NCBI RefSeq assembly: GCF_025602895.1
Contig: NW_026516435.1
Coordinates: forward strand, 1 to 44,133
Direction of reading: 5' to 3'
DNA from: Polychytrium aggregatum
Lineage: Eukaryota > Chytridiomycota > Chytridiomycetes > Polychytriales
DNA length: 44,133 nt
Below the pieces are notes generated by a model. That model was not told the origin of the DNA, did not search any database, and saw only the letters and a program-made list of their open reading frames with translations. This document shows positions 16,541-43,428 of this stretch, piece by piece; position 1 is the first letter of the stretch, and every line of letters starts with the position of its first letter. The position numbers were made by a program, and so were the translations under genes.

Positions 16541-18502
16541 TTAATGTTTGATAGCCTGGTAAACACCATACACCGCGCCTCCTAGGATCCCAAGCACAAA
16601 GGAGACAAAAACGAGGCGTGGAAAAATTAATCTTATCCATATGAGAAAATACTTCCGTTCCATGAGGAACCAACTTGAAAAGTTCCCATAAATGAACTCA
16701 TAATCTTTAGAGAAATTGACGCGACAGCCTTTCGGTAGCCCTGATATCCTCGAGCTCGTTATGTTCCACCGATGACCAAAGTTGCCGAATACCAATTTAG
16801 TGAGACAAGATCGATCAGAGCGCAACGGCGATTGTGCATCGAGGTGTAGTTGCTTGAGAGATGGCAGCTTCTTGGCCAGTCCTCTGATCCTCCTTATCGA
16901 GCGAGGGGTGTGGAGGACTTCAAGGTTTGGAAGAGAGGGCATTTCATCCAACGATTTCAATTCGTGGCACTTCTTCAAATCAAGGACTCGGAGTGGGCTT
17001 TCTTCGAGATGTAGATCAGCCAAGCTCACGACGGATTTTGACAGGACCAGCTGCTCAAGTTTTGGCATCCTTGGGAGCTGGCTCAAGACATTGTGTGGTT
17101 TGTTTGAGCCCACTGTGAGGTTGATGAGGGCTGGGAATTCCTCAGGTACATCCACGAGGGTGTCAACGTTGTATGCGATGTGCAATTCCAGAAGCTTTGG
17201 CATCTCAGAGATCCCCTTGAGTGATTTCAAACCTTTGCAATCACCAAAGTGAAGGCTCGTAAGTGAGGGCAGCACTCTCGGCATGCCCTCGAGGCTCTCG
17301 AAAGGACCATTGAGATGGAGTGATTCCAAGCTCGGCGTTTCAGGCATTCCCTTGAGGGATTTTAAATATTCATAACAACCAAAGTGGAGGTACGTGAGTG
17401 AGGGTAGCGCTCTCGGCATGCCTTCAAGGTTCTCGAAGGAACCTTGAAGACAAAGTGCCGTCAATTTTGGCATTTCAGGCATCCCCTTGAGAGATTTCAA
17501 ATCTTTGCAACAATTGAATCTGAGGTTGTCAAGTGAGGGTAGCACTCTCGGCATGCTCTCGAGGCTCTCGAAGGAGCCTTCAAGGTGGAGTGTCGTCAAT
17601 TTCGGCATTTCAGGCATCCCCTCAAGGGATCCGAGGTTTCCAAGATCGAGTCTTCTCAATGAAGGCAGCACATTTGGCATGCCTTGCAAACTGGATAGGG
17701 GACTGTATGTTTCATACCGGTATTGACCATTCTCATTCGTCAGTCCTTCAGTCATAGAGAACACTTTGGGCCATCCGGACACCTCCAAAAACGAGATGTT
17801 GCAGATATTGACACATTTGCCCGCCTGATCGATCCCTGGGATCGTGAAGGGCAGCAGTTTGGAGACATAGGCGTCACCCCTCCGTGGTACATTACGTGAG
17901 ATCGTCATACCGCGGTAATCTGACCAGATCTCTATCGGAGATACGATGGTGAAATTCATTCTCTCAGCAATATTGATCCTCTCCTCTATGGACAGTTTGT
18001 TGGGCGAGCTCGAGTGTTGTGTAGTTGGAAACTGGAACGAGGGGTCGATAACTTGGCAGTAGCGCGAAACTTTTGAGTAGAGCGTTTGATCACGGTAGAC
18101 TTCGGCCCAGAGTCGATTCTCCTTCTCCAGCATTGATTTGGTCGGTGGCTTTCGTCGGTATAGGCGGATCAGATAGCAAAAGAGTCCCTGCATGACGTCG
18201 AGGCGGTTGACGGAGGCATCGACGCCCTGGAACATAAACTGGGCTGACACTTTCAAGCGAGTGGAAAGGAATCGTTCCCACATCCTTTCGGTGTTGAGGA
18301 TGGCCCGATGTTTCTTTGAAACCCGCAAGAGCTTGGCGAACAACGGCGGACTGGCATTGCTGAAGAATGCCTCATTTGTGATCAGGACCGTGAGCAGGTC
18401 GAAGCGAGCGAGGCCCTCTTGAACAGCCAGCGATACCATCAGTGCTTCTTGGGCGGCGAATGGCTTGGCGGGGGAAAGGATGGAGTGGGTGGGGCTTGTC
18501 AT
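16541..18502 (-). CDS. leucine-rich-repeat protein with F-box-like N-terminus and C-terminal membrane anchor
   Basis: Intronless gene of 653 residues from the ATG at 18502; the frame is open a little further upstream but starts there only with TTG. N-terminal region (about residues 30-85) reads FDLLTVLITNEAFFSNASPP, LFAKLLRVSKKHRAIL, then WERF, an F-box-like helical pattern. A charged linker follows. From about residue 270 to 550 are leucine-rich repeats whose units contain GMPEMPKL, LHLEGSFESLEGMPR and VLPSLTxLHF; three units are near-identical at 45 residues. The chain ends with a hydrophobic helix (FVSFVLGILGGAVYGVYQAI) and a short basic tail, as in tail-anchored proteins. F-box plus LRR would suggest a substrate receptor of an SCF ubiquitin ligase, held on a membrane; this is inference. 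Its upstream region is a LINE relic. Base composition is lower in GC than the neighbours. Confidence 0.8.
   Translation of the reverse strand: MTSPTHSILSPAKPFAAQEALMVSLAVQEGLARFDLLTVLITNEAFFSNASPPLFAKLLRVSKKHRAILNTERMWERFLSTRLKVSAQFMFQGVDASVNRLDVMQGLFCYLIRLYRRKPPTKSMLEKENRLWAEVYRDQTLYSKVSRYCQVIDPSFQFPTTQHSSSPNKLSIEERINIAERMNFTIVSPIEIWSDYRGMTISRNVPRRGDAYVSKLLPFTIPGIDQAGKCVNICNISFLEVSGWPKVFSMTEGLTNENGQYRYETYSPLSSLQGMPNVLPSLRRLDLGNLGSLEGMPEMPKLTTLHLEGSFESLESMPRVLPSLDNLRFNCCKDLKSLKGMPEMPKLTALCLQGSFENLEGMPRALPSLTYLHFGCYEYLKSLKGMPETPSLESLHLNGPFESLEGMPRVLPSLTSLHFGDCKGLKSLKGISEMPKLLELHIAYNVDTLVDVPEEFPALINLTVGSNKPHNVLSQLPRMPKLEQLVLSKSVVSLADLHLEESPLRVLDLKKCHELKSLDEMPSLPNLEVLHTPRSIRRIRGLAKKLPSLKQLHLDAQSPLRSDRSCLTKLVFGNFGHRWNITSSRISGLPKGCRVNFSKDYEFIYGNFSSWFLMERKYFLIWIRLIFPRLVFVSFVLGILGGAVYGVYQAIKH
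17235..17640 (-). repeat. 135-bp tandem repeats inside the LRR gene
   Basis: Three consecutive 135-base units encode 45-residue LRR blocks; the conserved seam (GGCATTTCAGGCAT on the plus strand) recurs near 17336-17345, 17470 and 17607. Identity is high enough to suggest recent duplication or gene conversion. Confidence 0.85.
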
Positions 18503-19408
18503 GAGCGAGACGGCAACGGGAGGAACGGATGGAGGCAATATGGGAAGATGGAGGAAGGGGAGCGACAGGAGGGAGACAGCCGAGGAGAAAACGAACGGCT
18601 TCGTCGATGATACCGGTGTGGCTTGGGATATTGAGGCACAGCCAGCACGCCCCGTGCACGGCCACCCTCAGGCTCCTGAAGGCCATGTTCGACGATGTGA
18701 AGATCCAAGTCGTCAGCGAGAGCCGTCGGTCCAATCGGATCTGGCTGCAGAAGGGACTGATCCAAGGATCGGTCCTGAGCCGCGGATGTTCAGTGTGTTC
18801 ATTGACGATCTGCGAGGACGCTTCCGAAGCATGGGAGGTACTCCCTCTAGAGCAACACCGGAGTCACCATCGAAGTGAACTCACTGTGGTTCGCCGATGG
18901 GGTGCTCATCTGCCGCCGCAACCAGACACAGCGCCTCCTTGACATTTGCGAGGCCCACAGCATCGAGAACCGATGCCAGTTCTCGCCTCCAAAATGCGAG
19001 GTGATGTGAAAGCGTCTCGTTTCAAAATCAGTTTGCTGTAGCACGTCCTCGGCTGAGATGATATGCAAGTCGGTTGATTGATTGATTGATGCGGCGCCTT
19101 CTCAGTCCCTTGCCCCACCGCCGAAACCGGGACGAGTCACAGCCCCTCGCTCGCACACGTGATCCTGCGCACCCTGGTCGAAAGTGCTCTTGCCGTTGCC
19201 CTCCGGATCTGTCTCCGGGCATTTGATTGCTCAGGCTCCCATCCGTCGCCGCCAACGCCCCGTCCATCTCGGCTCTTCCCCGCGAGTTACTCATCTGCCT
19301 CGCCGTCGCTCTCATTCCATCCACCTCCACTCTCTTTGCCAAGGAGTCTTCAGCCATCCGCTCGTGCACCTATCCTCGCCACCACACATTTCTTCAGGCA
19401 AGCTCGGA
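18503..19408. promoter_or_regulatory. divergent promoter interval shared by LRR gene and RPN1, half filled by a LINE relic
   Basis: The two genes face away from each other with 906 bases between start codons. About 18640-19006 is a LINE fragment. Between 19076 and 19095 there is a short (GATT)n run. The last 250 bases before RPN1 are pyrimidine-rich, as before other genes in this window. Confidence 0.45.
18640..19006 (+). mobile_element. LINE relic: reverse transcriptase palm fragment
   Basis: Encodes the catalytic core missing from the other LINE fragment: LKAMFDDVKIQVV, WLQKGLIQGSVLS, then after a one-base shift PRMFSVFIDDLRGRF, and after another shift NSLWFADGVLI, where the normal FADD catalytic box has lost an aspartate. 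It ends with QTQRLLDICEAHSIEN and PPKCEVM, overlapping the first fragment (6032-6128) over about 97 bases with about six mismatches. It stops abruptly at 19006 without a poly-A tract, so it was cut at both ends. Frameshifts and the damaged active site show it is dead. Confidence 0.85.
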
Positions 19409-24289: not shown

Positions 24290-24892
24290 TCCCGCCGCTG
24301 CTTGAGCGTGATAGCGCATCCATTTCCACCCTCCCGAGCATCATTTCTTCTGCCTTTGGTGCTCCCTCCATGGGATCGACTGCAGGACGTGCTGTATCGT
24401 TCCAAGCTTCCGTCCTGGACAATAAAATGCGAAATGAGCCCACCTTGAACATTCGTGCTTGCCCCCAGTGGTGTCTTTGTCTTGGTCCCCTGGCGCAGCT
24501 GTCGATCGTGGGCAACGCTCCAGCCAACATACAGCTGCCGATCTGGCGGGCTCCGGTTCATGTATCCCACTCGCTTGCCGTTGCATTTGTCGTTGCCCCG
24601 CCCTCCTCCTCGACTGCGACTCGGCCCCCATGACAGCACCCACCCGTTGCTGACAAAAGGGCGCCATCAAAACCGAGGCGGCACCGGGCTCTCTGACATC
24701 CGAGCGCGGGTCGCCAACAAAGAGCGTGTGGGGTTCATATTCAGGAGCATCAGCCGGATCCGCATCAGCAACGGGCGATCAGGCATCGCAACGACCCAGA
24801 GACCCCAGGCTTCTCGCTGGCATCGCTGAGCACTCACCAGACTCGCTTTCGGCAACCCCTCGCTCGTCTTCTCGATCCATCTGTCAAGCGAC
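24290..24892. other. RPN1 3' UTR and methyltransferase promoter
   Basis: Holds an AATAAA signal 132 bases after the RPN1 stop. No other gene or repeat is visible. The two genes run in the same direction. Confidence 0.5.
24421..24426 (+). terminator. polyadenylation signal AATAAA for RPN1
   Basis: Canonical hexamer in the expected place downstream of the stop codon at 24289. Confidence 0.55.
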
Positions 24893-25708
24893 ATGGCAAC
24901 ACCAACCCCAGAAACGATTGCTACCCGCAACCAAGAGCTGCTCCAGTGCTGGGACAACTTTGCCAACGACTTTCGGCACTACGAAAAGATCATGCAGCAG
25001 TCCTGGCGACCACTGCTCAGCCACATGGACCTCGGCTCGGCCCGCAGCATCCTCGAGGTCGGATGCGGGCGCGGCGAGTGTGCCAAGGCCATCCTGGGCA
25101 TGGCCCCGTCCGGCTGCAGCGTCGTCACGTCTGACTTTTCCTCCGAGATGATCAAGGCAGCTACTGCCGCTCTCGAGGCCCATGACGCCCTGCCAAACCC
25201 TGGCAGGGAGGGCCAGCTGCGGATCGAGCAGATGAGTGCCCTGGATCTGCACAGCGTCCCCACGGCCTCGATCGATCGGTACATCGCCAACATGCTCCTG
25301 CACCTCGTGCCCGACCTGGACGGCATGCTGCGCGAGACTCGCCGTGTCCTCGATGCCAAGACCGGCATCGCCGGATTCACCATCTGGGGCGACCGAGCGC
25401 AGAGCCTGGTCTTCAGCCTCCGCCCGGGCCGAGAAGACAGCCCCAACTTTGACGCCGGCCGTGATCTGGATGCACTCGCTCGACGAATCCATGCCGCCGG
25501 CTTCTCCAAGGTGCGCATGTGGCGCCAGCCATGCATCTTTGAGCTGTGGGACCCCGAACGGGTGGTCGAGTTCTGGATGCACTCGGAGGGCAAGACGATC
25601 CAGGACACTGAGTGGCTCCAGGAGGCCCGCAAGCGAACCACCCGGGCAATCTGTGACGAGGGCAAGCCGATTGGGCTCGAGGCCGTGATCATCCTCGCGA
25701 TGCCCTGA
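24893..25708 (+). CDS. class I SAM-dependent methyltransferase
   Basis: Single exon of 271 residues. The Rossmann-fold motif I ILEVGCGRGECAKAI (residues about 52-66) and the following acidic post-motif region VVTSDFSSEMIKAA are those of the Methyltransf_11/25 type that transfer a methyl group from S-adenosylmethionine. IEQMSALDLHSVPTASIDRY gives the motif II/III region and MLLHLVPDLDGMLRETRRVL the motif IV-V helix. After the core lies a C-terminal part with GFSKVRMWRQPCIFELWD, as in small-molecule methyltransferases. No signal peptide or membrane segment is seen. The N-terminal WDNFANDFRHYEKIMQQSW helix resembles the start of ubiquinone/arsenite or generic small-molecule enzymes, but the substrate cannot be read from the sequence. 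Confidence 0.88.
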   Translation: MATPTPETIATRNQELLQCWDNFANDFRHYEKIMQQSWRPLLSHMDLGSARSILEVGCGRGECAKAILGMAPSGCSVVTSDFSSEMIKAATAALEAHDALPNPGREGQLRIEQMSALDLHSVPTASIDRYIANMLLHLVPDLDGMLRETRRVLDAKTGIAGFTIWGDRAQSLVFSLRPGREDSPNFDAGRDLDALARRIHAAGFSKVRMWRQPCIFELWDPERVVEFWMHSEGKTIQDTEWLQEARKRTTRAICDEGKPIGLEAVIILAMP

Positions 25709-34407: not shown

Positions 34408-34487
34408 TGTTACATGAGTTGTTACATCAGTTGTTACATGAGTTGTTACATTAGTTGGTATATGAGTTGGTATATGAGTCGTTACAG
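34408..34487. repeat. 12-bp tandem repeat (GTTACATGAGTT)n
   Basis: Six to seven degenerate units with variants GTTACATCAGTT, GTTACATTAGTT and GGTATATGAGTT, ending just before the poly-A signal. Confidence 0.9.
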
Positions 34488-34928: not shown

Positions 34929-37900
34929 ATGCACATGCAGCGCTTTCGCCCGGGCGGCATCGGCGCCCTTGTCCGTCTGGTCCTTTTGTCGGTGTTGCTG
35001 CGGCCCAGTTTGCAGCAAACTGGGGCACCAGGTAAGCGACCCCGCTGTTGGCTGCCGTGCATTTGCCGGCTCGCTTGTTGCCGTGCATTTGCTGGCTCGC
35101 TTGCTGCCGTCTGCCGTCCCAGCGACTGAGTCTGATGCACCCTCGACCGCCCAGATCTCGACGTCAGTGCTTCCGGCGCAACGTTCCCCGGCGCCCTGTA
35201 CATCCAGCTCTCGTCCGACTTTTCCTCGGCCTTCACCGACAACTTCACCTATTCGCCCACCTCGTCGGGCCAGGGCGTCAGCTCTCTTCTCGACCCGTCG
35301 CAGCCCCTTGGCTATGCTGGTTCGGATCTCATCCCCAGCACGCTTCAGGCCAACGGATTGCAGCTCGTTCCCGTGCCCTCCTTTGTCAGGTATCTGATCT
35401 GCATCACCGCAATCCGCCCCCAATGTCTCCCTGCCACTTGCCCCTGCCATCTGCGCCAGTGTCTCCCTTGCGATACCGCCACTCATCATCACACCACTCG
35501 CCATCCAGCGGCATCGTCGTCGTCTACAACCTTGGCCCGCTGACCGCCAGCAATCCCCTCAAGCTCACCCGCAAGAATGTTGCCGACATCTTCCAGAATG
35601 TCGTCACGACCTGGAGCGACCCCAGTCTGGTCGCCAACAATCCTTGGCTCGCGGGCACCAACCACTCGATCCAGCTTGTCACCCGCTCCGGCACCTCCGG
35701 CACCAACGCCCACTTTCTCGATGCCCTCAGCAGCTTCCGCGACAACTTTACCACCCTCTCCAACGGTGTCTTCCCGAACGTCAACCAGTTCTGGGCCCCC
35801 ACCAACGACTATGTCGGTGCTGTTGTCAGCAGTGTCAACTACTCCATTTCGTACATGGACTTTCCCGACGCCCTCTCGAACCGCCAGGCCAACGCCGCCT
35901 TTGGCATCGCCCAGCTCTTCAACAAGGCTGGCAATCTCATTGTTCCGTCGCTGAGCTCGATCCAGAGTGCCCTCAACAACCTCAACTCCACCTCCAGCCT
36001 CGATACCTCCAACCTTGCCTGGTCGATCAACAGCGCTCTCACAGACTCGCCTGATCCCAATGCCTATCCGATCATCGGCTCGACTTTTTACATGCTCCGC
36101 CATGACAGTCCCAGCTCCGTCAACTCGGCGCTGACCGAGAGCGACATGCGCGCCGCCCTGCGCTATCTGTGGTGGACGCTCTTCAACGGCACCGAGCCGA
36201 CCCCGAGCCCCTTCTACAATGCCACCTCGACCGTCACCTCCAAGTCCTTTGTTCGATACCCATTCGCCTTCCGAAACTACTCGTACAGCCTCCTCCGCAC
36301 CGTCAGCTTCCGCGGAGTCCAGCTCTACAACGACCAGGAGCCCTGCAACCCCCGCTTCGATGCCAGCGGCAACTACCTCGGCCCCAACTCGTGTGCCAAT
36401 GGGTTTTGTCTGATCGACGGGCCTTTCCAGTCCGGCTCCACCTGTGTCTGCCAGGCAGGCTTTATCAACATCAACCAGCGGGACTGTTCCGAGCAAGCCG
36501 TGTTCTTCAACTACCCCCTCGGCGCCCAGGACTCGTACCATCTGCGGTTGATCCTGCTTGTGCTGCTATGCTTGGGCTTTATACTCATTGCCGCGATCAC
36601 AGCCGTTATGATCTGGAAGAGCAAGGAGAATCTCATCCGTGCGATTGCGCCGGCGTGCTGCTATGTGGTCCTTGGTGGATGCGGTAACTATCCGGCAGTC
36701 GTTGATGTTGCTGCGTTGCGTGGTACTTGCATCGTCGTCTTGGCAGGTCATGGGCCATTGTCGTACTTTGATGTGAGGCTCGATCACCCCAGATTCCCAT
36801 ACCGCGTCACCCTGGCTAATCCAACCTCGCCCATCGCTTCTGTTATGCAGCCATCGGTCTCTTGGGTGCCCTGCGCCTCTCGGAAGTGCCCACCAGTTTG
36901 ACCTGTGTCTTTGACTTCTTCCTGGTCCCGGTTGCCTTCACAACCGTGTTTGCCATCCTGCTCCTCAAGGCTTACCGGATCTATGCCATCTTCTCCTACA
37001 AACGCATGTCCACCTCGTCCATCATCCCCAACACCAAGCTCATCCTCGTCAGCCTGGGTCTCAGCGTCGTGCAGCTCCTCATCTCGGCCATCCACACCGG
37101 TATCATCCGTCCCAAGGCCTCGGTTGCCCTCATCGGCGAGCAGTATGTCGTCACATGCCCGATCGACCCCGGCATGTTTGGCGGCTTCATCTCCTTCCTG
37201 GTGATCACAATTGCCTTCAACCTGCTTATCCTGGTTGGCTGCTTGGTCCTTGGTGTTCTGACCCGCGGCGCCCATGTGACCTTTACCGAGTCCAAGGAGC
37301 TCTACTACTGCCTGATTGCCACGGCCCCGACGGTCATTCTGGGCACGATCATGGTGTGTCTCCTGCGTGGCCTGAGCTTTACCGGCTCGGACACGGTCTC
37401 GCAGTTCTTCACCTCTCTGGTCATCACCATCGTCTTTGGCTTCATTATTCCCTTGACCCTCTTCATGCCGCGCATCGTTGCCGTGCTGAGGGGCTCGGAC
37501 GCCAAGCCCGGCCTCGAAGCCGGCCCCACCGACAGCCAGAACCTGTCGAGCCCCGTGGCTCCGTCCATTGGCTCGTGGGCCATCCGTGCGCACACCTACG
37601 AAGTCGGCGTCCAGGGCCTCAAGTTTGGCTCGGCCTGGACCTCGGTCTCGCTCCTGACCCTCCCTGAGATGGACCTGATTGTGTTCCTGGACTCGGTCAA
37701 CACCAAGAAGGCCCTCATGTCCTTCCAGCTCAAGACGGTCGAGATCAACTACGTCCAGCCCAACGGCGACCGCGCCGACGAGCCCACCAAGCGCATTCAG
37801 CTGCGGCCCACGCCGCTGTCCAAGACCCACTTCAAGATCGAGTTCCCGGTCTTAGAACAGGCCACCCGCTTTGCAACGGCCGTGGCCCAGTTCCAGCGCC

Positions 37901-38244
37901 TCAACCAGAGCTCTCCCTCCGACGGCAGTTCGGCCAACTTTGGGCCTCTGTCGTCACTTGCCCGTCTGAGCCAGCCCAATCTCGACTCTCCGGTGGCGCT
38001 TACGCCCATGACTCTGCCTCCACTGAACCCGTCCGTCATCAGCCGGTCGTTCCCTGCCGAAAGCCGCCTGTCATCGGTCCACTCCCAGCTCTCAAAGGCG
38101 CCGCATTCCGAGAAATCGAGTCCCACCGCCGTGACTTCCTCCGAGTCCTCGCTGGGTGGACGCCTCATGACCCTTGAGAGTCTCGCGTCCGATTCTCATC
38201 TGAAGGACGACGATGGCGACGAGCTCTTGGTTCTCAGGCCCTGA
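34929..38244 (+). CDS. class C seven-helix receptor with extracellular PstS-type phosphate-binding domain
   Basis: Exons 34929-35031, 35155-35389, 35509-36683, 36851-38244; 2907 nt, 968 residues. Signal peptide GALVRLVLLSVLLRP (residues about 11-25). Residues about 36-385 match bacterial PstS: SASGATFPGALYIQL, TSSGQGVSSLL, LGYAGSDLIP, SGIVVVYNLGPL, NVADIFQNVVTTWSDP and LVTRSGTSGTNAHFLDALS. The residues that bind phosphate in E. coli PstS (Thr10, Ser38, Asp56, Arg135, Ser139, Gly140, Thr141) all have a counterpart here: Thr44, Ser72, Asp92, Arg172, Ser176, Gly177, Thr178. Residues about 390-440 form an EGF-like six-cysteine module (CANGFCLIDG, CVCQAGFININ). Residues about 457-718 hold seven hydrophobic helices: LRLILLVLLCLGFILIAAIT, AFTTVFAILLLKAYRIY and LVITIVFGFIIPLTLFMPRI, with LLKAYRIY as in GABA-B/class C receptors. 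A 250-residue cytosolic tail follows. Expected role: sensing extracellular phosphate or a related anion through G proteins; this is inference. Confidence 0.87.
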
Positions 38245-39101: not shown

Positions 39102-40913
39102 TCATTCCTCGCAGCCAAACAAGCCTGACCCAGGACGATCGGCCACCTGGAACTCGATCGTTGCGATATCTTGATCCGATCCAGGGTTTCTCAAGCCGCC
39201 TTGCAGAATTTGGCCTGGCAAAACGGGTCCAACTCCAGCGGGCGTGCCTGCATCATGGTGCAGTTCCGAGCGACGAAGCGATTGCAGAAGCAGAACAATA
39301 CGAATGAGCACCGCTGGAAACGAGCATTGCGATGACTCGGGATAATGTGAACGGCGAAAACGCTCCATCAATGGCGACGCTACCAAGTATGGTGTAGCGG
39401 GGTTGCGAAAACAGGATACATGGGTGCATCTATAGGACATGAAAGTGGGGATGGCAGGATCAACCCAAGTTCCGTGCCCAAGCTTACCAGTCAGAATGAC
39501 ATCACCGGCCTCAAGCCGCATGACCGAGCTGACATACTCGATCAATGCAGGGATACTGCATGCATTGCCCGAGAGGATGCGTGGAGAATATGCAGCATCC
39601 GTCAGGATCCTGGTTGACACTTTGGCGAGCAGGGAAGGACGGCCGACGAGTGACCGTACTACCAACTATCTGGCTCGCAACTGCTTCCGCAACTAACCCT
39701 GAGCAAGCATGAAGATCGACGCGGGTGATGCTCGCCAGGAACGAAACGCACCTGAAGAGCATGTCCCTGGTGTTGCCGTTTTGAACGAGCTTGCCATCAT
39801 TCTACAAGGATGATGGTTCGTGATATCCCACAGTGTGAGCAGCATTTCATGCCACAGAACTATCGAGTGTTCCTGCTGAACCCGATCCATAGGCTGCATT
39901 GACCAAACGGAGGTGCTGTCGCAGTTGTATCATTCAATTTAGACTCACCTTGAGCCAAATGTCAAGATTGCTGGGATCATGGACTCGCTCTTTTTCGATA
40001 AACTCGCTACCAGGATAAAGAACCAATCGTCAAGGAGGCTCACATTCGCGACTGGATCATGACAAGGGGTATTTCTCTACAGCAACAGGGCGTCGACGAC
40101 AGAGCATCCTACCCGATCGGCGTAAAGGTGTCGAAGCCCTTGGCCACAGACCAGGGGTGGCCTTTGCTCTTGGCAGCATCCTGGTCAGATAGATTTTGGG
40201 GAAGGGGTCAGATTCGTATCAAGAATCAAGTGCAACTCTACTGGTGTGCCCGAGGGAGGCGGGCACATTTGAGGCCAACGGCAGACTGGCTGTTTGTCGT
40301 GGACTGGATATTACCTGGAGGTTTCTTGCAGTCATGTCCAAGGCCAGGGCATAGCCTGCAGCAACATCCGCTGTCATGAGTCCCAGTCTCAAGGCGCTAT
40401 TCCATCCCAAGAAGGTTCGCAGCGCAGATCTCTGCAGGTTCGGTGAGCACCGCAACACACGCACCCGAAATAATGCCATCGAGACCCGCCCTATCTAACC
40501 TGAGACATAGTCCATGGCCCGGCTGGCCTTGATGTCCCTTCCATTCTTGCCGATGACCAGGGCCAGCTCGATCTCATGGTGTAGGATCACGTTCTTGGGA
40601 CGCTCGATGATGCCCAACGATCCATCGCTGGGCCGGACGAGGTAGGACGATGTGGGCTTGAGGAAGAACATGGGGCTCTTGGGGACGGCATTGCCGAGCT
40701 CTTTGGCATGCTCGCTGGCAGGTAAAGAGCAAAAACAATGTCAGACCAGCACGGATCGGCTCTGAGGCCGGACATACTCCAACGGCGGATCTATTAGTGG
40801 GCGAAGTGGGCTGTGGTTGGATTTGTGGAGGGCGGTGTGGGTGGAAGAGGGGCTTACGCATAGTTTCTGCCGATGGCGATGATCTTGCGGCCGATTTGGA
40901 CAAAGTCTCTCAT
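39102..40913 (-). CDS. FAHD1: FAHD1-like acylpyruvate hydrolase / oxaloacetate decarboxylase
   Basis: Fumarylacetoacetate-hydrolase-family enzyme, usually mitochondrial, that splits acylpyruvates and decarboxylates oxaloacetate (family knowledge). Minus-strand exons 40913-40858, 40714-40500, 40355-40315, 40180-40113, 40006-39949, 39801-39752, 39555-39488, 39247-39102; 702 nt, 233 residues, close to the 220-225 of animal FAHD1. Motifs: KIIAIGRNYAEHAKELGNAV, PMFFLKPTSSYL, then the metal-binding HHEIELALVIGKNGRDI (HxExE), MDYVSGYALALDMTARNLQ, PWSVAKGFDTFTPIG, RVHDPSNLDIWLKNDGKLVQ and VSSVMRLEAGDVILTGTPAG, then VGPVLPGQILQGG. No obvious mitochondrial presequence precedes the first motif. Exons are tiny (41-68 nt) apart from the second and last; phases agree at every junction. 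Confidence 0.94.
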
Positions 40914-41202: not shown

Positions 41203-43428
41203 TCAGCCCTTCATCGCTGCGGATTTGGGGCTTTCGACTTGTTCCGCCCGTTCGTCCTCGCTTGAGACGTGCTGAACGGAGAAGAACAGCGCTCCGGCGA
41301 CGATAAAGGAGCCCAACAGGAACCACAGCGAGTTGCGGCGGTATCCGGTGCCCTGGATGATGGCTCCGACAATGAGCGGCCCGATAGCCGAAGATCCCTT
41401 GTCGGTGATAGCTGGGGATTGGGGGGAGAGTGGATGGTCAGCCCGAGGTGCAGTGGCTCGGCTTTCATGATATCATGGGCAGACAGCGACAGCGGCATCG
41501 AGGGATCCTGAGAAGCTGCCTCGACATCATACTCACTCATCATCGAGAAATACTCAGCCTCCTGGCCCGGCGGGATCATCTGGGAGTACCAGACTCGACA
41601 TGAGCTCTGCGTCGCTCCGATCAGCAATCCATGCCACACGGCGCACACCCAGATCTCCCACTTGTGCTTCAGGAAGAAGACTCCGTAGAGCGTCAGGAGC
41701 GCATAGAGGGATGCTTGCGCAATCAAAATTGGCTTGGTAGATCGCTTGGTCAGGTTTTGGATCCACGGGAAGGCCTTGAGGCCAACGATGCCGGCGACAA
41801 AGATCGTCAGGGCGATCCCAACGAGCTCCAGCTGGCTGGCGCCGAGCTCCTCCTGGGCAATCAACAGCGCAACCGAGAGCAGCGTGTTGAAAGCATCTGC
41901 GTAGAGGACCCAGCCGAGCAAAAAGAAGATGATATGCCGCTCGTCCCGTGCGGCCTTCCTGAGGGTCTTGCCGACTGTGGAGCAATGGTGACCGAGGTTA
42001 TCGTTAGGGTCAAGGGAGGCGATGCTATCAGCGGCTCATGCAAACTGTCCAATGACGGAGACCGAGCGATGCCGGGCAGAGCTCGAGGCCGCTTGGCTGT
42101 TGGACCTAACCTTCGCTCCATATGGTACTGCCATGCTTACCTTTCTTGAATGAGTATGTCAGTGGATTCACCTCGGCTGGAAGACAAGGGCCGGGACGAG
42201 ACTTGAGCCATGCAGCAGGGAACCAGAGGAATCCGAGCCACCACACGCTCGAGAAGGCCACCACGATCTGCGACGGATACGTTGACGTAGGCATGGCTGG
42301 GTTGGATCCAAGGAGATAGATGATGGCTGAGCCAATAGCCAAGGTGACGAGGGTCCCGCCATAGCCAAAAGCCACCGCAGTGGAGCTGATGCGGTTGGCA
42401 GTGCGATCGTATGCGACATCGGCGCCGACTGTGGTCGAGAGGCTCAAATAGTCCGGATGGGCTCGGGTCAAGACAGGGATGTAAGCAAAGAAGAACAGGT
42501 ACGAGCCCACGAACAGAACCGAGCCTGCAATAAAGAGCAGGCCCGCAATCCAGAAGAGTGCTGGAATCGTTGGCGGTGCGAGATGAGCGTCGCGGTTGTC
42601 GGGAATGATAGGTACAGCGATCAGCAGCGGCTTCACCACCACGGATCTCGTTCGTGCTGAACCGAGGGTGGACCTGCGACGGGCGCATTCGCACTCACCG
42701 GCTTTGAGGACGAGAACGAAAGCCAGACCGCAGAAACACGAGAGTATTGAAAAGATAATCATCCATCGCTTGCGTTTCTCTGGAAACCGATGTCGATAGG
42801 GCCATAGATGATGAGAACATGCCGACTGTGAGCCTGATACCGGTGCAGACGCAGCCACATCCAAGCACATGTCTCATTCGGCTTGGCGACTCACCTCCGT
42901 AGTCCGACAGCGCCCCGAAGCCGATCAGAACGAACATCTGCAGAATGGTCGCTGCCGAGCTCAGATACAGGAACAGCGAGCCGGTGTCGAGGCAGCCAGA
43001 GCCGATTTTGACACAGCACGAGTACGAGGCGGCAGTGATATCGCAGGGGACGCTATTATCGAGGAGATTCCAGCCGCTCTCGGCCGCAAGGCCCCGGACG
43101 ACCACAGGCATCAGCAGAGACATGGACATGCCCCTGGATGAAACAGGGCAGCGTCAGCAGAGCAAAGACCCTGATTGTATATAACAAGCTGGTGTTGGAG
43201 CTGGACTCGACGTACATGAAGCATTCGCTCTGCAGTCGAAAGAGGAGCATGGAGTAGCGAAATGTGAGTTTATGAGGGCCTCCAGTGTCTGCAGCAAATG
43301 TGACAGAGTGTGGTCGGGTTGGAGCGACAATGGCTTACAGCAAACGAAAAGATATAGTACCCCCACAGTTCCCGTTTGGAAACAGTGGTGGGGTCTCCCG
43401 CGGATATCGGCATCGAATGAGACTGCAT
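41203..43428 (-). CDS. ATG22: Atg22-like vacuolar amino-acid effluxer (MFS)
   Basis: Major-facilitator protein of the vacuole membrane that exports amino acids after autophagic breakdown (yeast knowledge). Minus-strand exons 43428-43339, 43229-43216, 43133-42895, 42779-42699, 42656-42141, 41974-41537, 41411-41203; 1587 nt, 528 residues. The start is REL-WGYYIFSFA-SECFM-GMSMSLLMPVVV, the Atg22 first helix; it is assembled from three exons, the middle one only 14 nt. PCDITAASYSCCVKIG and an odd Cys-rich lumenal loop follow. Other landmarks: ALSDYGEKRKRWMIIFSIL, AYIPVLTRAHPDYLSL, GYGGTLVTLAIGSAI, VWWLGFLWFPAAWLKSRPGP, NPLTYSFKK, WVLYADAFNTLLSVALLIAQ and ITDKGSSAIGPLIVGAIIQG. About twelve hydrophobic helices are present. 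ATG at 43413 is an alternative start; the acceptor at 42656 (after a 42-nt intron) is the weakest junction. Confidence 0.87.

Follow-up and report, generated by a model that had tools for sequence, protein, structure and literature searches.

A PstS-type binding domain joined to a class C receptor membrane domain in Polychytrium aggregatum, with a candidate phosphate pocket that is intact in some paralogs and dismantled in others

The gene BJ171DRAFT_123089 of the chytrid Polychytrium aggregatum lies on the forward strand of a 44,133-nucleotide stretch of DNA, referred to here as the window. Four exons with GT/AG borders join into a single frame of 968 codons (Table 1), and its translation is identical over the full length to the 968-amino-acid NCBI protein, which bears out the sequence-only reading of one continuous four-exon gene. 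From the N-terminus, the product consists of a hydrophobic stretch, a PBP_like_2 domain of the PstS type, an EGF-like linker with six cysteines, the class C (7tm_3) membrane domain, and lastly a conserved C-terminal domain.

Table 1. Features of the PstS-type/class C receptor gene, in window positions
Feature	Position	Strand	Content or basis
Exon 1	34929..35031	+	Start and signal-peptide-like hydrophobic stretch, residues 1-34
Exon 2	35155..35389	+	N-lobe of PstS-like domain
T44-F45	35181-35186	+	Exon 2
S72	35265-35267	+	Exon 2
D92	35325-35327	+	Exon 2
Exon 3	35509..36683	+	Remaining PstS-like domain, EGF-like linker, helix 1, most of helix 2
Phosphate loop R172	35684-35686	+	Exon 3
Phosphate loop S176-G177-T178	35696-35704	+	Exon 3
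Six-cysteine EGF-like module, C392 to C439	36344..36487	+	Cysteine positions
7tm_3 domain, residues 458-704	36542..37449, split by intron 36684-36850	+	Pfam
Exon 4	36851..38244	+	End of helix 2, helices 3-7, tail
C523	36904-36906	+	Exon 4
K544	36967-36969	+	Exon 4
C607	37156-37158	+	Exon 4
E651	37288-37290	+	Exon 4
R712	37471-37473	+	Exon 4
Conserved C-terminal domain	37555..37905	+	Genome searches with C-terminal pieces

PBP_like_2 matched residues 32 to 311 with 59.3 bits (Pfam cutoff, 27) and 7tm_3 scored 86.4 bits (cutoff, 33.5); a hydropathy scan, with overlapping windows merged by eye, placed seven hydrophobic segments in the region of residues 461 to 708. The best PDB matches were PstS chains for the ectodomain (to 8.6e-23) and metabotropic glutamate receptors for the membrane part (mGlu6, 6.7e-9). 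Together these matches support the earlier claim that a type II, PstS-like ectodomain sits on a class C membrane domain. The NCBIfam model for PstS, TIGR00975, gave 132.9 bits, under its equivalog cutoff of 205 bits, and the ectodomain is therefore a PstS homolog rather than PstS proper. Eight of the 10 N-glycosylation sequons fall in the ectodomain. A 7tm_3 match was present in all eight NCBI proteins of the receptor family, and the type I flytrap (ANF_receptor) and the cysteine-rich domain NCD3G were absent from Pfam scans of the family at E values up to 1. The linker module consists of cysteines 392, 408, 413, 425, 427, and 439, and its six cysteines are kept in 15 of 16 modeled loci, the exception being L029 (P0003), from which most of the module is missing. 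The earlier description of this module as EGF-like holds for the six cysteines; the EGF model PF00008 exceeded its cutoff in one of the eight NCBI proteins, the paralog P0002 (24.9 bits against 21.5), and had no match in the Pfam scan of the window protein.

The fusion of PBP_like_2 with 7tm_3 is a real gene and not an annotation artifact, because exon 3 spans the phosphate loop to helix 2 and because both whole domains occur in one frame of a paralog. The frame is free of stops from 35036 to 36901; exon 3 reads without interruption from midway in the binding domain across the EGF-like linker and on into helix 2, and intron 3 lies inside the membrane domain rather than between the two domains. 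The paralog, on contig C365, carries PBP_like_2 positions 5 to 256 of 267 and 7tm_3 positions 10 to 250 of 251 in a single frame of 1,089 codons. Throughout the 64.7-Mb assembly, each of the 28 PBP_like_2 matches has a 7tm_3 match on the same strand, 424 to 1,866 bases downstream, where chance would supply such a neighbor about 0.002 times per match. Given the stop-free exon 3, the paralog with both complete domains, and the 28 concordant neighborhoods, we reject an artifact of the gene model and leave the idea that two adjacent genes were wrongly joined with next to no probability.

A second, near-identical copy of the gene lies on contig C113. Across 4,001 bases, the two copies show six substitutions and a single inserted base; three of the six substitutions are coding (35177, 37101, and 37623), and all three are silent at the protein level. 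Most simply, the second copy is the other haplotype. Bacterial contamination was rejected on the strength of the introns, of the second copy, whose coding sequence differs only silently, and of a tree in which the receptor PstS domains all fall on one side of the branch that separates them from 79 bacterial rows (support, 100/100). That branch is very long, at 1.5 plus 1.8 changes per column, and the tree is to be read with its long branches and the unlike letter makeup of many receptor rows in mind. No bacterial donor group emerges from this tree of the receptors and the 79 bacterial rows.

The 28 PBP_like_2 matches represent about 15 loci when near-identical copies are paired by eye. Genome searches were run exon by exon at E values up to 0.001, and counts for large families are lower bounds; at this threshold there were at least 58 matches to 7tm_3, 30 of them in PBP_like_2 neighborhoods and 28 elsewhere, and no free-standing PBP_like_2 gene was found. 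The 28 matches elsewhere resemble class C receptors with other or unnamed ectodomains, and some of them score equally in several places (C210, C334, C359, and C104). Spliced-alignment models were built for 16 of the 28 PBP_like_2 neighborhoods and reproduced the NCBI lengths of P0001 (968 amino acids), P0002 (1,011 amino acids), and P0003 (967 amino acids). These 16 loci are interdependent: each of the pairs L025/L026, L030/L031, and L032/L033 consists of near-copies or alleles, and L034 is closely similar to L030/L031. In the full-length tree, L035 and L021, the allele of the window gene, have long end branches. The NCBI models of P0004 and P0005 appear to skip parts of the receptor, namely some of the cysteine module and the region of helix 3, respectively, which are contained in the spliced models L023 and L027; annotation errors are likely. 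Protein searches beyond the species returned P. aggregatum proteins only, some of these searches having scored just the 8,000 candidates richest in shared words; one returned the query alone, missing P0002 and P0003, and none recovered the Spizellomyces punctatus receptor SPPG_06488.

Bacterial PstS (E. coli; PDB 1ixh and 1qui) has in common with the window protein both its sequence family and eight phosphate contacts. In the alignment, T10, F11, S38, D56, R135, S139, G140, and T141 of the E. coli protein, in the usual numbering of its contacts, correspond to T44, F45, S72, D92, R172, S176, G177, and T178 of the window protein, an identity at eight of eight positions. The ligand residues named in the sequence-only reading were thereby confirmed, and the pair F45/F11 was added to them. 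A similar eight-residue pattern is given for a related protein in PMC7922408, which assigns the Asp of the pattern a key part in phosphate specificity.

For a broader comparison, the best 80 of the 563 relatives confirmed in a bacterial scan were retained; 78 of these entered the alignment beside E. coli PstS (79 rows in all), two having been dropped by a filter, presumably for an ambiguous residue. Measured against these rows, the window gene matches seven of the eight contacts by strict consensus, the commonest letter at position 10 being Ser, and all eight if Thr or Ser is accepted there. Outside the contacts, it matches 26 of the 47 columns with conservation of 90% or more in the PstS rows; against these, eight of eight contacts is an excess with a one-sided Fisher P value of 0.015. 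Two-sided P values were 0.02 to 0.09 for six other loci with intact pockets and 0.24 for L035, these loci being related to one another. Such values suggest a modest excess of pocket conservation in the receptors, and conservation at positions 10 to 12 is biased because one search pattern contained the motif Gly-Ala-Thr/Ser-Phe-Pro. Judged by its sequence, the window gene is a genuine receptor gene whose phosphate pocket is credible.

The best explanation, and in our view a reasonably likely one, is the direct phosphate sensor proposed in the sequence-only reading: a class C receptor of the plasma membrane in which a type II Venus-flytrap ectodomain would bind, and so directly sense, inorganic phosphate. 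Phosphate would close the two lobes of the ectodomain as it does in PstS, and the seven helices, receiving this closure by way of the EGF-like linker that occupies the position of the cysteine-rich domain of animal receptors, would activate a heterotrimeric G protein; the receptor would probably work as a dimer. Paralogs with intact pockets would be phosphate sensors as well.

It is unlikely, though worth serious consideration, that the receptor senses a phosphate ester, a phosphonate, or some other oxyanion instead. The ectodomain as a whole resembles PstS only distantly (the bacterial consensus is matched at 70 of 263 noncontact columns), and the pockets of six paralogs (L030 to L034 and L036) are plainly altered. 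Asp137, which adjoins the phosphate loop, is Asp in 78 of the 79 PstS rows and is kept by E. coli PstS, unlike the receptors, all 16 of which have Gly, and this replacement counts against the phosphate reading. The PDB chain 1qui also has Gly at position 137 in the alignment and scored above its series mates 1quk, 1qul, and 1ixh; we take all four to be E. coli PstS and 1qui to hold phosphate. What speaks against a different ligand is that the window gene keeps all eight direct contacts, among them the Asp keyed to specificity in PMC7922408.

The family varies at these contacts. All eight (with Thr or Ser at position 10) are kept in nine of the 16 modeled loci, two of which, L025 and L026, are near-copies. 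In L035, Arg135 is replaced by His, and in the six loci L030 to L034 and L036, T10, F11, R135, and T141 were lost together; S139 is changed as well in L034 and L036, and L036 also has Thr for S38. These six pocketless loci form one clade in the full-length tree (support, 99/99), and the tree that includes the bacterial rows places this clade within the intact receptors. Two-sided P values for contact excess in this clade were 1.0 for L030, 0.70 for L033, and 0.13 for L036. Since the pocketless loci keep 25 to 29 of 46 other conserved columns, numbers that resemble the 26 to 30 of 46 to 48 kept by intact loci, their scaffold was evidently kept while the pocket was lost. Binding-domain dN/dS is low for L034/L036 (0.10) and L033/L036 (0.17), both with near-saturated synonymous sites, and for L030/L034 (0.25), and the pocketless clade therefore appears constrained; the near-copies L032/L033, at 0.71 with very few changes, argue against a uniform constraint. 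The L032 model contains one in-frame stop. With six of 16 loci pocketless and one carrying the change of Arg to His, the family is not uniformly one of phosphate sensors, and the pocketless paralogs must, as far as their sequences indicate, have a role other than phosphate sensing. The earlier reading, which dealt with a single gene, missed the other loci, the dismantled pockets, and the C-terminal domain.

Because the pocketless clade kept its conserved columns (25 to 29 of 46) after losing four contacts, the fold seems to be independent of the pocket, and one might suppose that every pocket in the family is a relic and that the PstS fold serves as a structural or protein-binding part without a small ligand. 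The intact pair L022/L029, whose binding-domain dN/dS of 0.63 likewise argues against a uniform constraint, would fit this supposition. We consider it very unlikely, given that the eight contacts are kept in nine of 16 loci belonging to several separate lineages and that binding-domain dN/dS is 0.13 to 0.27 in the intact pairs L023/L028, L024/L028, and L024/L026, the first two of which are near synonymous saturation.

GABA-B1 and GABA-B2 are a class C pair with type I flytraps in which one subunit is nonbinding, and the NCD3G cysteine-rich domain is not part of GABA-B. By analogy, this pair offers a model for the pocketless clade as putative partner subunits; within the direct phosphate-sensing reading, its members would either respond to another ligand or act as silent partners. 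A fuller version is rather improbable: a phosphate system of several receptors, in which intact PstS receptors would signal via G proteins, the later pocketless clade would supply ligand-free partners, the GABA-B1/B2 arrangement having then arisen independently a second time, and a C-terminal output domain would be the system's own.

In the membrane part, all 16 modeled loci have C523, C607, K544, R547, E651, and R712; we take C523 and C607 to be the TM3/ECL2 disulfide cysteines and K544 and E651 to be the TM3 Lys/TM6 Glu pair of class C. Other class C positions are variable, Lys653 being kept in 12 of 16 loci and Pro711 in three of 16. PstS itself is a free periplasmic protein that feeds an ABC transporter. 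The ABC permease family PF00528 (PstA/PstC type) has no match in the P. aggregatum genome and is matched in 14 of 14 control genomes. With this result, and given that a class C receptor domain, conserved residues included, forms the membrane part, it is highly improbable that the protein is a phosphate transporter or scavenger, a role to which its PstS homology (TIGR00975) would point and which is proposed in print for fusions of this kind in Plasmodiophora (PMC4815078).

The genome contains G-alpha genes (best match, 5.6e-57). Two pieces of the C-terminal domain searched against the genome matched 26 and 24 places, all of them, on comparison by eye, behind PstS-like receptors, and in the same searches the domain was not found behind other 7tm_3 matches. 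Among the 28 PBP_like_2 neighborhoods, only C62 and C375 lacked a match to it in one search. By topology the domain would be cytosolic. Pfam gave it no name, and a weak, subthreshold match to PH_29 was seen in one of the eight proteins (E value, 0.021).

The calcium-sensing receptor, which to our knowledge has no PstS domain, resembles the proposed reading as a class C receptor that responds to outside phosphate. The response there is direct, phosphate acting as a noncompetitive antagonist whose effect is abolished by mutation of R62 in an anion site (PMC6795806). PBP_like_2 on a chytrid class C receptor was reported by Krishnan et al. in 2012 (PMC3251606) for SPPG_06488 of Spizellomyces punctatus, which, compared by description, combines the same ectodomain family with a class C membrane domain; the accessible text of that report gives a single receptor, without a ligand, pocket, EGF-like linker, C-terminal domain, or pocketless clade. 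In gut fungi, almost half of the class C receptors bear type II binding domains and a few have an EGF-like domain (PMC5168858); these share the type II fold that replaces the animal type I flytrap, and theirs are said to be like sugar-binding proteins. A 2016 report on Plasmodiophora brassicae (PMC4815078) described 7tm3 domains fused to bacterial binding domains, PBP_like_2 among them, which its transcriptome analysis showed to be single coding regions, assigned four of the fusions to phosphate as "transporters," and claimed them to be unique to Plasmodiophora. The four are, we infer, the PBP_like_2 fusions of its figure. By description they are alike to those of P. aggregatum in joining a bacterial binding domain to 7tm3 and differ in the transporter label.

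In view of these fungal and Plasmodiophora reports, the architecture of the window gene was already known, and the novelty implied by the sequence-only reading was overstated. In the accessible portions of PMC3251606, PMC4815078, and PMC5168858 we found no mention of a series of intact and dismantled pockets or of the C-terminal domain. In the open-license literature, mostly at the level of titles and abstracts, no work on BJ171DRAFT_123089 was recognized.

The family as a whole is a test set in which intact and dismantled PstS pockets sit on otherwise similar receptors, and it supports the published view that the ligand domains of class C receptors were acquired from more than a single bacterial family, which makes the membrane domain a better definition of class C than the animal flytrap. 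Fungi gauge phosphate through transporters that act as sensors and through intracellular SPX signaling. If the direct-sensing reading is true, a G-protein receptor that reads outside phosphate would be a route distinct from both. Because SPX-domain matches are present in the genome (best, 8.2e-24), an intracellular phosphate pathway may coexist with the receptor.

Elsewhere in the window, a 12-base unit resembling ttacatgagttg was seen by eye to recur about six times head to tail at 34410 to 34481, roughly 450 bases before the start codon; the array is possibly regulatory. The forward strand also encodes a methyltransferase domain (24830 to 25708). On the reverse strand lie a frame of 708 codons that contains leucine-rich repeats and falls in the part of the window lowest in GC (16541 to 18667), a weak fumarylacetoacetate-hydrolase match slightly below the cutoff (39102 to 39665), and pieces of an Atg22-like vacuolar effluxer (41211 to 42873).
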